A stretch of 64,000 nt of DNA from Luteimonas kalidii (GTDB taxonomy: Bacteria; Pseudomonadota; Gammaproteobacteria; Xanthomonadales; Xanthomonadaceae), in the NCBI RefSeq assembly GCF_029887935.1, contig NZ_JARXRO010000011.1, forward strand, positions 157,485-221,484, read 5' to 3'. The notes below the pieces were generated by a model. That model did no database searches. It saw only the letters and a list, made by a program, of their open reading frames with translations, and was not told the origin of the DNA. Positions 46,754 through 51,342 of the stretch are shown one piece after another. The position numbers and the translations under genes are program-made. The first letter of the stretch is position 1, and each line of letters opens with the position of its first letter.

Positions 46754-47707
46754 TCAGAGCATGTCGGGCGGGGGCATGTCGGCGACCGCCGCGGGCGCAT
46801 CGGGCACGCCGCCGAGCAGCCCGGCCGGCAGGGCGCGGAAGGTCTCGGCCAGTTGCGTGAGGAAGCCCGACATCGCCGAACTGCGCCGCCAGAACATCGC
46901 GATCTCGCGGCTGGGCCGCGAATCGCTGAAGGCGAGCAGGCGGATGCTCGGCGGATGCGCGACCGGCGGTTGCACCGCGAGCGCGGGCAACAGGGTGATG
47001 CCGACGTTGGCGGCCACCATCTGCCGCAGCGTTTCCAGGCTGGTGGCGCGGAATTCGGAGGTTTCGTGCGCGCCCGCGAGCTGGCACACGTCGAGCGTCT
47101 GCCGCCGCAGGCAATGCCCGTCCTCGAGCAGCAGCAGGTGCTCGTTGGCCAGTTCCTCCACGCCGAGCGCGCGGCGGCCGGCCAGCCGGTGGCGTTCCGG
47201 CACCGCGAGCAGGAACGGTTCCTCGAACAGGTATTCGTGGTGCAGCTGTTCGTCGTGCACCGGAAGGGCCAGGATCGCCGCGTCCAGGCGTCCGTCGCGC
47301 AGGCGCGCGAGCAGTTCGTCGCTTTTCTCCTCCACCAGCAGCAGCTGCAGGTCGGGGAAGCGTTCGCGGATGGCCGGGATCACGTGGGGCAGCAGGTACG
47401 GCCCCAGGGTGGGGAAGATGCCGAGCCGCACGGTGCCGGCTTCCGGCCGCTGGCTGCGGCGCGCGGCTTCCTTCATCTGCTCCACTTCCGCCACCACGCG
47501 CCGCGCCCGCTCGACGATCTCCACGCCGATCGGCGTCAGCATCACCTTGCGCGGCGCGCGTTCCACCAGGGCCACGCCAAGCTCGTCCTCGAGCTTGCGC
47601 AGCTGGGTGGACAGCGTGGGCTGGCTGACGAAGCTCGCCGCCGCCGCGCGTCCGAAGTGCCGATGGTCCGCGACCGCGATCAGGTACCGGAGGTCGCGGA
47701 GATTCAT
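46754..47707 (-). CDS. oxyR: Peroxide-sensing LysR-family regulator OxyR
   Basis: 317 residues. The helix-turn-helix (MNLRDLRYLIAVADHRHFGRAA, SQPTLSTQLRKLE; each in part) is followed by the effector domain with the redox cysteines at exactly C199 and C208 (GHCLRRQTLDVC), the E. coli numbering. Oxidation to the disulfide switches OxyR to its activating form for ahpC, ahpF and kat genes. It is four bases downstream of ahpF in the same direction, so the regulator is co-transcribed with its targets; this ahpC-ahpF-oxyR order is known from Xanthomonas. Confidence 0.98.
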   Translation of the reverse strand: MNLRDLRYLIAVADHRHFGRAAAASFVSQPTLSTQLRKLEDELGVALVERAPRKVMLTPIGVEIVERARRVVAEVEQMKEAARRSQRPEAGTVRLGIFPTLGPYLLPHVIPAIRERFPDLQLLLVEEKSDELLARLRDGRLDAAILALPVHDEQLHHEYLFEEPFLLAVPERHRLAGRRALGVEELANEHLLLLEDGHCLRRQTLDVCQLAGAHETSEFRATSLETLRQMVAANVGITLLPALAVQPPVAHPPSIRLLAFSDSRPSREIAMFWRRSSAMSGFLTQLAETFRALPAGLLGGVPDAPAAVADMPPPDML

Positions 47708-47711
47708 GGCA

Positions 47712-49301
47712 TCAGGCCGCGTGGGCCTCGAGCGCCGGGGCCGGGGCGGACGCGCGGATCAGGTGGTCGAATGCGGCCAGCGCCGCCTTGGAGCCCTCGC
47801 CCATCGCGATCACGATCTGCTTGTACGGCACCGTGGTGCAGTCGCCGGCCGCGAACACGCCCGGCACGCTGGTCTGGCCGCGGTCGTCGACCACGATCTC
47901 GCCGCGCGGTGACAGCGCCACCGTCCCCTCGAGCCACTCCGTATTGGGCAGCAGTCCGATCTGCACGAACACCCCCTCCAGCGCCAGCCGGTGCGCATCG
48001 CCGCCGACGCGGTCGCGGTACACCAGGCCGGTGACCTTGCCGCCGTCGCCCAGCACCTCGGTGGTCTGCGCGCTGGTGATGATGCGCACGTTCTCCAGGC
48101 TGCGCAGCTTGCGCTGCAGCACTTCGTCCGCGCGCAGGCGGGCGTCGAACTCGATCAGGGTGACGTGGGCGACGATGCCGGCCAGGTCGATCGCGGCCTC
48201 CACGCCGGAGTTGCCGCCGCCGACCACAGCCACCCGCTTGCCCTTGAACAGCGGGCCGTCGCAGTGCGGGCAATAGGCCACGCCCCGGTTGCGGTACTGG
48301 TCCTCGCCGGGCACGCCCATCTGCCGCCAGCGCGCGCCGGTGGACAGCACCACGGCCTTCGACTTCAGGCTGGCGCCGTTCTCGAGCTTCACCTCGACCA
48401 GGCCGTCGGCGTCGGCCGGCACCAGCGCGGTGGCGCGCTGCAGGTTCATCACGTCCACGTCGTAGTCGTGCACGTGCTGCTCCAGCTGGGCGGCAAGCCT
48501 GGGGCCTTCCGTATGCGGGACGGAGATGAAGTTCTCGATCGCCATCGTGTCCAGCACCTGGCCGCCGAAGCGCTCGGCCGCCACGCCGGTGCGGATGCCC
48601 TTGCGCGCGGCGTAGATCGCCGCCGCCGCGCCCGCCGGGCCGCCGCCCACCACCAGCACGTCGAACGGGTCCTTGCGCGCGATCGCCTCGGCCTCGCGAC
48701 TCGCGGCGCCGGTGTCGAGCCGGGCGACGATCTGCTCCAGGCTCATGCGGCCCTGGTCGAACAGTTCGCCGTTGAGGAAGATCGATGGGACCGACATCAC
48801 CTCGCGCTCGGACACTTCGTCCTGGAACAGCGCCCCGTCGATGGCCACGTGCGAGATGTTCGGGTTCAGCACTGCGGCCAGGTTGAGCGCCTGGACCACG
48901 TCGGGGCAGTTCTGGCAGCTGAGCGAGTAGTAGGTCTCGAAGCGGTACTCGCCCTCGAGCGCGCGCACCTGCTCCAGCAGCACGGGCGCGGCCTTGGACG
49001 GATGGCCGCCGACCTGCAGCAGCGCCAGCACCAGCGAGGTGAACTCGTGCCCCATGGGCAGGCCGGCGAAACGCAGGTGGATGTCGGGGCCGGGCGAGGT
49101 CAGCGCGAACGAGGGCGTACGTTCGCCGTCGTCGCGGCGCACCTCGACGGTCACCTTGTCGGACTGCTGGCGGATGTCCTCGAGCAGTTCGAGCAGTTCG
49201 CGCGACTTCGCGCCCTCGTCCACGGACGCGACGATCGCGACCGGACGCTGCAGACGTTCGAGATAGCCCTTGAGCTGGGCCTTGAGGTCGTGGTCGAGCA
49301 T
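47712..49301 (-). CDS. ahpF: Alkyl hydroperoxide reductase subunit F
   Basis: 529 residues. AhpF passes electrons from NADH to AhpC. N-terminal double thioredoxin-like domain with C129/C132 (SCQNC), then FAD domain ([19 protein letters not shown]), the second redox CPHC and NADH-binding [17 protein letters not shown], ending [23 protein letters not shown]. Size agrees with E. coli AhpF (521). A 167-base gap to ahpC contains a G-rich tract but no gene. Confidence 0.98.
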
Positions 49302-49468: not shown

Positions 49469-50032
49469 TCAGATCTTGCCGACCAGGTCGAGCGACGGCT
49501 TCAGGGTCTTCTCGCCCTCCTGCCACTTGGCCGGGCAGACCTCGTTCGGGTGCGCGGCGACGTACTGCGCGGCCTTGAGCTTGCGCAGGGTCTCCTTGAT
49601 GTCGCGGGCGATGGCGTTGTCGTGGATCTCGACGGTCTTGATCACGCCCTCGGGGTTGATCACGAAGGTGCCGCGCAGGGCCAGGCCCTCGGCATCGATG
49701 TGCACGCCGAACGCGCGGGTCAGCTGGTGGGTCGGATCCCCGACCAGCGGGAACTGGGCCTTGCCCACCGCCGCGGAGGTTTCGTGCCACACCTTGTGGG
49801 AGAAGTGGGTGTCGGTGGTGACGATGTAGACCTCGGCGCCCAGCTTCTGGAACTCGGCGTAGTGGTCGGCGGCGTCCTCGACCTCGGTCGGGCAGTTGAA
49901 GGTGAAGGCGGCCGGCATGAACACCAGGACCGACCACTTGCCCTTGAGGCTGGCGTCGGAGACTTCGACGAACTCGCCGTTCTGGAACGCGGTGGCCTTG
50001 AAGGGCTGCACCTGGGTATTGATGAGGGACAT
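49469..50032 (-). CDS. ahpC: Alkyl hydroperoxide reductase subunit C (peroxiredoxin)
   Basis: 187 residues (E. coli 187). Typical 2-Cys peroxiredoxin: peroxidatic C47 in [13 protein letters not shown] and resolving C166 in NEVCPAKW. It reduces hydrogen peroxide and organic hydroperoxides and is recycled by AhpF. AGAGG six bases before the ATG. The promoter 70-100 bases upstream carries an OxyR-like half-site, described separately. Confidence 0.99.
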
Positions 50033-50102: not shown

Positions 50103-50131
50103 ATGATAGAAGCCTTCTATCAATATGTAAA
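50103..50131 (-). promoter_or_regulatory. ahpC promoter (-35 TTTACA, 17-bp spacer, -10 TATCAT)
   Basis: Read on the minus strand, TTTACA (50126-50131) and TATCAT (50103-50108) are each five of six matches to the sigma-70 consensus with an ideal 17-base spacer. It lies in an AT-rich island, unlike the surrounding DNA. The expected start is near 50096, giving a leader of about 64 bases with AGAGG before ahpC. Confidence 0.7.
50104..50122. promoter_or_regulatory. OxyR-type operator, 19-bp perfect inverted repeat over the ahpC spacer and -10
   Basis: TGATAGAAGCCTTCTATCA is a perfect inverted repeat around C50113 and contains ATAG-N7-CTAT, one half of the tetrad OxyR consensus. It covers most of the ahpC spacer and -10 box, a position that fits repression by reduced OxyR, which is reported for ahpC in Xanthomonas. 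The second ATAG-N7-CTAT half is not present at the expected 7-base distance; only weak matches exist. Confidence 0.6.
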
Positions 50132-50210: not shown

Positions 50211-50239
50211 TTGCAAACATTTTTGCGCTGCAGCATAGT
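50211..50239 (+). promoter_or_regulatory. Candidate promoter for the small RNA (TTGCAA-17-CATAGT)
   Basis: TTGCAA (50211-50216) and CATAGT (50234-50239) each match four of six consensus bases with a 17-base spacer in a locally AT-rich stretch. The predicted start near 50246 falls one base before the first stem of the structured region. Confidence 0.45.
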
Positions 50240-50245
50240 CGACCC

Positions 50246-50410
50246 ATGCGCTGCAGTCCGGTGCGACGGTCGCAAGGCCGCGGAGCCGGGGCAGCGCAGG
50301 GTTTCGGACAGTGCGCCTGGCGCGGTGTCCAGCCGAGTTCCGTATCCGTTTCCTCCCTCCCACACGTGGTACGGAATCTTTGAAGGCGGCTTCGGCCGCC
50401 TTCATTTTGT
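50246..50410 (+). ncRNA. Candidate structured small RNA between ahpC and prmC
   Basis: No protein is encoded here, yet four helices follow each other: TGCGCTGC/GCAGCGCA (50247-50254 with 50291-50298, with an inner TGCGA/TCGCA hairpin), GGACA/TGTCC enclosing GCGC-CTG-GCGC (50306-50330), TTCCGTA/TACGGAA (50338-50344 with 50370-50376), and a canonical terminator. The loop of the third helix holds a pyrimidine-rich TTTCCTCCCTCCC, which could pair with Shine-Dalgarno sequences. About 165 bases. C-rich-loop sRNAs such as sX13 are known in Xanthomonadaceae; whether this is a homologue I cannot tell. It does not look like 6S, 4.5S, tmRNA or RNase P RNA. Confidence 0.55.
50381..50410 (+). terminator. 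Rho-independent terminator of the candidate small RNA
   Basis: Ten-base-pair stem TGAAGGCGGC / GCCGCCTTCA with a stable TTCG tetraloop, followed by TTTTGT. The T-run is on the plus-strand side only, so it ends rightward transcription. No protein gene precedes it on the plus strand, which implies a non-coding transcript. Confidence 0.85.
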
Positions 50411-50502: not shown

Positions 50503-51342
50503 ATGCCGACATCCGAACCGATCACCGCCCGCCGACTGCTGGCCGACGCGCGCGCCCGGATCGACCTGGCCGATGCGCAGGCGCTGCTGGCCCATGCGCT
50601 CGGACGCGACCGCAGCTGGCTGTTCGCCCATGCCGACGACCCGCTCCAGGAGTGCGATCGCGATCGCTTCCTGTCGCTGGTCGCGCGTCGCGAAGCCGGA
50701 GAGCCCGTGGCCTACCTGTGCGGCCGTCGCGGCTTCTGGACGCTCGATCTCGCCGTCACGCCGGACACCCTGATCCCCCGACCCGAGACCGAGCTGCTGG
50801 TGGAACTCGCGCTGGCCCGCCTGCCGGCCGTCCGGGCATTGCGCGTGGCCGACCTCGGCACCGGCAGCGGGGCGATCGCGCTGGCGCTGGCGCAGGAACG
50901 CCCCCAGGCCCGGGTGGACGCGGTGGATGCCAGCCCCGGCGCACTCGAGGTCGCGCGGCGCAATGCCAGCGAGGCGGGACTGGAGAACGTCGCGTTCCAC
51001 CTCGGCGACTGGTTCGCCGCATTGCCGGACCTGCGCTTCGATCTGGTGGCGAGCAACCCGCCTTACATCGCCGAAGGCGATCCGCACCTGGCCCGCGGCG
51101 ATCTGCGCCACGAGCCGGCGATGGCGCTGTCCTCCGGCCGCGACGGGCTCGACGCGATCCGTGCGATCGTCCGCGATGCGCCGGCGCACCTGCAACCGGG
51201 CGGCTGGCTGCTGCTCGAACACGGCCACGACCAGGGCGAGCCGGTCGGCGCGCTGCTGCGCGAGGCGGGCCTGGTCGACGTCGCCACCCACCGCGACCTC
51301 GAGGGGCGCGACCGTGTCGGCCTCGGGCGGCTGCCTGCCTGA
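50503..51342 (+). CDS. prmC: Peptide chain release factor N5-glutamine methyltransferase
   Basis: 279 residues. PrmC (HemK) methylates the Gln of the GGQ motif in RF1 and RF2. N-terminal helical domain ([25 protein letters not shown] in part), [30 protein letters not shown]-binding [15 protein letters not shown], and the catalytic SNPPYI. The start is the ATG at MPTSEPIT; upstream in-frame codons run into the terminator region and are not credible. Confidence 0.97.

Follow-up and report, generated by a model that had tools for sequence, protein, structure and literature searches.

Between the divergent genes ahpC and prmC, the Luteimonas kalidii contig studied here carries a gap in which the first-pass annotation had proposed an unannotated, structured small RNA with its own promoter and terminator. 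The locus thus raises the question of whether such a gene exists and, if so, what switches it on and what it acts on. To address these points, the gap was analyzed within a stretch of 64 kb (referred to as the window), together with the corresponding loci of related genomes.

The RNA gene and its conserved core

The following elements were distinguished at the locus:

46754-47707, minus strand: oxyR-like gene of a LysR-type regulator (best NCBIfam model OxyR, 327.1 bits, cut-off 329)
47712-49301, minus strand: ahpF (TIGR03140, E 1.3e-239)
49469-50032, minus strand: ahpC, here also ahpC1 (TIGR03137, E 5.9e-96), divergent from the small RNA gene
50106-50120, no strand: ATAG-N7-CTAT pair of OxyR type, overlapping the ahpC promoter
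50246-50408, plus strand: small RNA gene, predicted transcript of about 163 nt, with the start placed from the position of the -10 element
50247-50332, plus strand: 5' domain with two further helices (fold z = -4.4)
50338-50376, plus strand: conserved hairpin, UUCCGUAUC (50338-50346) pairing with GGUACGGAA (50368-50376), inner pairing CGU/ACG
50350-50363, plus strand: anti-Shine-Dalgarno-type loop UUCCUCCCUCCCAC, unpaired in the minimum-free-energy fold
50381-50408, plus strand: intrinsic terminator with a 10-bp stem (50381-50404), a UUCG loop and a T tail
50503-51342, plus strand: prmC (PF17827 and methyltransferase domains), the right-hand neighbour, outside the RNA

The stretch from 50211 to 50410 was predicted to fold at -100.6 kcal/mol, compared to a mean of -77.1 (sd 4.4) for 200 dinucleotide shuffles (z = -5.4), and similar values against shuffles were achieved for the predicted transcript (50246-50408; z = -5.7) and for its 3' conserved core (50333-50408; z = -5.6). 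The terminator with TTCG loop and T tail, as well as the further helices preceding it, were recovered as they had been described. However, one terminator-like site was counted in 1.5 kb, where shuffled sequences gave 0.9 on average, and the terminator by itself is not beyond chance. Since it is unsurprising alone and the promoter is too weak for a consensus scan (see below), the case for a small RNA gene rests on conservation.

The small RNA sequence occupies one place only in its own genome. No Rfam family reached its gathering cut-off anywhere in the 64-kb window; up to E 10, three matches were obtained in the small RNA region, all of them chance-like, and the loci of 11 relatives yielded sub-threshold matches only, to unlikely families. 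Regarding coding capacity, a frame of 45 codons starts with an ATG at 50246 in Luteimonas kalidii and is open to 50383. Among 31 scored loci, no conserved open frame was found in the transcript, the longest frame with its end inside it ranging from none (19 loci) to 40 codons; for L001-L004 and L060, the scan began past the ATG, so that the ATG frame was not counted there.

BLAST searches with the small RNA region matched 24 out of 60 other genomes, all belonging to the same genus (24 of 36 genus-mates), and a model of the core, R1, added nine genus genomes in a search of 395 family genomes. Combining both approaches, the 72-nt core was present in 34 out of 48 distinct Luteimonas genomes, 8 of the positives being known from BLAST alone. 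The 14 negatives comprise four judged by BLAST alone and six with weak R1 matches (E 0.001-0.004) that were scored as absent; two of these six (L095 and L096) were inspected directly. R1 was built including the window sequence, which it matched at 50337-50409 with 95.7 bits. At E ≤ 0.01, matches were recorded for 186 of the 395 family genomes, most of which are taken as terminator-like noise. Furthermore, an exact pattern scan across 84,980 species returned 27 records, namely 26 from Luteimonas or Lysobacteraceae and one from Methyloligella (L048), the latter being regarded as a chance match after reading its sequence.

The core alignment (25 sequences, 19 distinct) had 95.2% of its cells paired, whereas pairing fell to 32-43% for slid structures. 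Its covariation score was reached by none of 500 shuffles, which ignore relatedness. Four pairs were changed on both sides, which 25 of 500 shuffles attained as well; for the variety of pair types, this was the case in 141 of 500. Base-pairing across the orthologous intergenic regions, the check that the first-pass annotation had named for itself, is therefore conserved for the 3' core. In the alignments, the 5' domain was common to the nearest relatives only. Clear constraint is indicated for the 3' core only. Taken together, the fold (z = -5.7), the T-tailed terminator and the occurrence in 34 of 48 genus genomes support the proposed gene, and at the sequence level we consider it confirmed that 50246-50408 (plus strand) has the features of a genuine non-coding RNA gene.

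The promoter and its PhaR-type palindrome

Upstream of the RNA and at its predicted start, four elements were recognized:

50211-50216, plus strand: -35 element TTGCAA, conserved in most relatives
50220-50236, no strand: PhaR-type operator TTTTTGCGCTGCAGCAT, a palindrome in the -35/-10 spacer
50234-50239, plus strand: -10 element CATAGT (CATATT, CAATAT or similar in relatives)
50247-50255, no strand: TGCGCTGCA, a second operator core located where the RNA is predicted to begin, 23 bp beyond the first core (50224-50232)

The -35 and -10 elements are separated by a 17-nt spacer. A promoter-like pair placing the start at the first helix had been noticed before; it is present and was absent from the list of a consensus promoter scan, being weak by consensus, yet it is conserved in relatives. 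In the aligned loci, the -35 element is mostly TTGCAA or TTGAC, the spacer palindrome is of the type TGCTGCAxTGCAGCA and the -10 element has forms such as CATATT or CAATAT. The second operator core at the RNA start was also found in L002-L004 and L060, among the nearest relatives of the window.

The palindrome described for Ralstonia PhaR in the accessible part of the source is YTKNTGCRNYGCANMAR (PMC12849132), and TTTTTGCGCTGCAGCAT agrees with it at 16 of 17 positions. PhaR is encoded in the same genome (PF05233, E 2.4e-19; TIGR01848, E 3.8e-54), as is a phasin (PF09361). Within the genus, the phasin gene was detected in 51 out of 52 genomes and PhaR in all 52 searched, and each of the 30 phasin promoters fetched carries at least two such palindromes. 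Co-occurrence of PhaR with the small RNA was dropped as a line of evidence, since PhaR is encoded in 376 out of 395 family genomes and its presence is thus uninformative.

An operator matrix was trained on the phasin (phaP) promoter sites of the genus alone. The small RNA promoter site ranked first within its locus of about 3 kb in all 32 scored loci, with values between 15.7 and 25.9 bits (34 loci were given, with L018 and L071 left unscored by a text pattern for the core, and the loci are related, not independent). Within the 64-kb window, the site was likewise at the top with 22.7 bits, followed by 12.0 bits for the next. For comparison, 30 Markov sequences of 64 kb reached a mean maximum of 12.7 bits and a highest value of 20.7 bits, the Markov background containing 3.6 sites per Mb at or above 15.7 bits, and the maxima for nine control loci of the genus ranged from 2.0 to 12.0 bits. 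A PhaR-type dyad between the -35 and -10 elements, as found in the phaP promoters of the genus, is hence also a feature of the small RNA promoter.

Searches of the same genome with the pattern TKNTGCRNYGCANMA, a core cut from the published Ralstonia consensus, gave 14 exact matches, compared to none for the reversed control. Two of these are located at phaP, one at the small RNA gene and one at phaZ (TIGR01849, E 7.8e-178), where the match ends 13 nt before the start. The phaR promoter of this species and its nearest relatives (TTGCAA-17-CATGCT) contains a related palindrome in the spacer and thereby has the layout of the small RNA promoter; this palindrome departs from the consensus and lies outside the 14 matches. 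A looser operator pattern was considered as well: its four exact matches included the small RNA site and two sites in coding sequence, and allowing one mismatch gave 130 matches versus 62 for the reversed control, an approximately twofold excess that is too loose to be used alone.

Others of the 14 TKNTGCRNYGCANMA matches in the window's genome were located as well. One lies 52 nt before a gene for a PfkB-family sugar kinase (L242, 1501-1515), in the space separating it from a divergent TonB receptor gene (TIGR01782), one is upstream of the gene for F0F1 ATP synthase subunit A (L246, 1501-1515), and one lies upstream of a DcaP-type porin gene. Some of the remaining TKNTGCRNYGCANMA matches, in or near unnamed frames, may be due to chance.

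Because phaR is encoded in the genome, and phaP and phaZ carry the same palindrome, PhaR, a PHB-sensing repressor, probably controls the small RNA. In the accessible parts of published work, PhaR is described to repress phasin genes and to be titrated by PHB granules (PMC12542648, PMC12849132). We accordingly favour, with a probability of roughly 0.6, a stand-alone Luteimonas small RNA gene that would be repressed by PhaR, induced together with PHB and equipped with an anti-Shine-Dalgarno loop to lower translation. As long as PHB granules are missing, PhaR would block the small RNA promoter; once PHB accumulates, the granules would titrate PhaR, and the RNA would be made together with phasin and PHB depolymerase.

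The first-pass annotation had suggested, from the position next to ahpC, that the RNA may belong to the oxidative-stress response. Judged from its context, this link is plausible: ahpC adjoins the small RNA gene in divergent orientation in 34 out of 34 loci, the space separating both genes contains an ATAG-N7-CTAT pair in 30 of 32 scored loci, and in some sister genera, the place of the RNA gene is held by a peroxiredoxin unit, ahpC2, divergent from an oxyR homologue. On these grounds, the RNA could be a peroxide-response regulator driven by OxyR bound between ahpC and the small RNA gene, with the palindrome playing a secondary part. OxyS of Escherichia coli is the model for such an arrangement, its gene lying beside an OxyR-controlled promoter just as the Luteimonas gene lies beside an OxyR-type promoter site; the operator is, however, of another type here, and no Rfam relation to OxyS appeared among matches up to E 10. 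Moreover, the ATAG-N7-CTAT pair of the window overlaps the ahpC promoter and is located about 90 bp before the -35 element of the small RNA, and a loose four-part OxyR box was found in none of the 32 scored loci. Since the site inside the RNA's own promoter is of the PhaR type, carbon-storage status is indicated first, and control by peroxide in the manner of OxyS appears unlikely.

The C-rich loop and its relation to known small RNAs

The exposed, pyrimidine-rich loop that had been pointed out before is borne out by the data, as UUCCUCCCUCCCAC is unpaired in the minimum-free-energy fold and its segment CUCCCUCCCAC is invariant in 25 out of 25 aligned sequences (19 distinct). Under PhaR control of the gene, the loop would pair with G-rich ribosome-binding sites of mRNAs and thereby reduce translation of the latter, a mode of action described for sX13 and put forward for MmgR.

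When duplexes between the loop and the start regions of phaP, phaR, ahpC and prmC were calculated, 81-99% of 112 background regions, a set in which many entries are not genuine genes, gave stronger pairing; for phaP, the gene of phasin, which is the protein lowered by MmgR, no strong pairing between its start region and the loop was obtained by this measure. Apart from the small RNA itself, three places in the same genome are perfectly complementary to the loop over 10 nt, none of them at a convincing ribosome site.

Two observations were made in other genomes. In G005, a 14-nt perfect loop complement, GTGGGAGGGAGGAA (L227, 1500-1513), follows an isocitrate lyase gene (NF011645) and stands just before a terminator-like hairpin, representing a target or sponge candidate. 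In G008, the perfect loop complement TGGGAGGGAG (L228, 1501-1510) is located 7 nt before the ATG of a gene with a TonB receptor plug domain (PF07715), that is, at the position of its ribosome site.

For sX13 of Xanthomonas, the accessible text of the report describes an RNA of 115 nt, encoded downstream of polA, with three 4C/5C loops that pair with G-rich mRNA sites independently of Hfq (PMC3771888). The Luteimonas RNA resembles it as a small RNA of the same bacterial family with a C-rich loop. It differs from this description of sX13 in its place at oxyR-ahpC-prmC and in having one CUCCCUCCCAC loop, and Rfam assigns it to no family; the kinship with sX13 that had been suggested is not supported in the form in which it was stated.

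An invariant loop for which strong target pairing was not found would also fit a core that acts on Hfq or another RNA-binding protein through its C-rich loop, as a sponge and not by antisense pairing. The Hfq-independent pairing of the C-rich sX13 loops with G-rich mRNA sites argues against this reading (PMC3771888, as far as accessible), which we consider rather improbable. That the element only separates ahpC from prmC as a terminator or insulator, with no function in trans, is very improbable: the terminator is strong, but such a role calls for neither an invariant loop in the adjacent hairpin nor conservation of a promoter and its operator, and prmC starts between 33 and 1323 bp past the terminator or even beyond the locus. 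A short leaderless protein from the ATG at 50246 can hardly be expected: the frame is open to 50383 in Luteimonas kalidii, but the longest frame ranges from none to 40 codons among the scored loci, as detailed above, and conservation extends to the loop but not to the 5' domain.

The closest parallel to the favoured PhaR-repressed RNA is MmgR (alpha-r8) of Sinorhizobium meliloti. In the accessible parts of the sources, PhaR (AniA) is described to repress mmgR through a dyad within the -35/-10 region (PMC8401924, PMC7143759, PMC12542648), and the mmgR promoter is listed among PhaR-bound fragments (PMC12542648). MmgR carries its anti-Shine-Dalgarno motif in the first loop, and the accessible part of that report gives no known direct target (PMC7143759). 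Both RNAs thus combine an anti-Shine-Dalgarno loop with a PhaR-type dyad between the -35 and -10 elements. According to the same partial descriptions, MmgR is unlike the Luteimonas RNA in being a 77-nt, alphaproteobacterial and Hfq-dependent RNA that is also activated by NtrC and resides in another genomic setting. The likeness was drawn from descriptions of MmgR, no related family being among the Rfam matches up to E 10. On paper, the Luteimonas RNA would work like MmgR; membership in the alpha-r8 family is not claimed. If the favoured reading is right, Gammaproteobacteria possess an equivalent of the PhaR-MmgR circuit, no kinship being seen at the sequence level. Its operator, its conserved loop and its locus would then offer concrete, defined starting points for examining how stored carbon is linked to translation and peroxide defence.

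Literature searches by title, which lacked most subscription papers, retrieved neither a study of Luteimonas small RNAs nor a PhaR-controlled small RNA outside rhizobia. The match for ahpC, small RNA, Xanthomonas and intergenic concerned Pseudomonas, and none was returned for a Lysobacter intergenic terminator small RNA. C-rich-loop small RNAs and PhaR operators are known kinds of elements; as far as seen, novelty lies in their being combined, in the lineage and in the connection to an ahpC unit.

The ahpC2-ahpD unit of sister genera

Outside the genus, 15 R1 matches were inspected, of which ten lie just after another ahpC and five do not (L085, L086, L091, L092, and L094). The product of that other gene, AhpC2, is 35-37% identical to the AhpC of the window, and an ahpD-like gene (PF02627) comes after it. 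To characterize this arrangement, 15 ahpC2 loci with flanks were compiled (L248-L262), nine of them preselected by R1 and six obtained from the AhpC2 protein search alone. In all 15, an oxyR homologue is divergent from ahpC2, and ahpD follows ahpC2; in ten, prmC is encoded on the same strand, adjoining ahpD or a few kb further on. R1 matched in the ahpC2-ahpD gap of 13 loci, with scores from 62.3 bits (E 8e-13) to 23.7 bits (E 0.0017), including four of the six that were not preselected. These hairpins, which are regarded as homologous to the Luteimonas element, likewise feature a C-rich loop and a terminator.

A PhaR-type site was detected in the ahpC2 promoter of eight out of the 15 loci, seven with at least 20 bits and one with 14.8 bits; as four of the eight belong to one genus, they represent four genera and one weak case. 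Two further PhaR-type sites (14.6 and 15.7 bits) are located elsewhere in the ahpC2 loci. The Luteimonas RNA and the ahpC2-ahpD hairpin consequently share a PhaR-type promoter site (8/15), a C-rich loop, a terminator and the oxyR-homologue and prmC flanks (10/15), the difference being that the latter hairpin follows a coding sequence within one unit. In Luteimonas, oxyR, ahpF and ahpC1 are arranged on one strand, followed by the PhaR-type promoter, the small RNA and, beyond it, prmC.

Searches with AhpC2 in six Luteimonas genomes returned, as the best hit, only a relative of 36-39% identity. With R1, twelve other genera, each represented by one ahpC1-type locus, yielded no relative (best match 13.8 bits, E 0.11). 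Since the operator type, the 3' hairpin and the place are common to both, the small RNA matches a peroxiredoxin unit minus its coding part. It may therefore derive from an ahpC2-type transcription unit whose coding sequence disappeared, leaving promoter and 3' hairpin as a free small RNA tying PHB status to translation, a scenario to which we assign somewhat less than even odds. Similarity to ahpC2 or ahpD coding sequence in the Luteimonas leaders was not significant (best E 0.063, 24 of 25 loci scored), and a prmC tree of 28 rows, in which 6 of 25 inner branches were well supported and the genus did not form one group, did not polarise the change. Because no coding residue was detectable and the tree gave no direction, the loss of the ahpC2 coding part is put forward as a hypothesis. 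If it is true, the 3' hairpin had a regulatory role even while it was part of the ahpC2 mRNA, and comparing the ahpC2 loci provides a natural series in which to follow how an mRNA can give rise to a free small RNA. The small RNA unit in the place of ahpC2, the common PhaR-type site and the 3' hairpin suggest that the coupling of carbon storage with peroxide defence probably has a long history at this locus.

Several minor observations concern these loci. The hairpin-terminator between ahpC2 and ahpD (e.g., L260, 5211-5281, minus strand) may itself act as a 3'UTR regulator. Among the ahpC1-type loci, L111 (2266-2772) has an ahpD-like gene (56% to the query) that is divergent from ahpC1; with no ahpC2 present, this locus is of intermediate-like appearance. 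Finally, moderate PhaR-type sites (14.1 to 16.1 bits) lie near ahpC1, with no R1 match, in three ahpC1-type loci from other genera, namely L113 (2203), L125 (2081), and L126 (2161).
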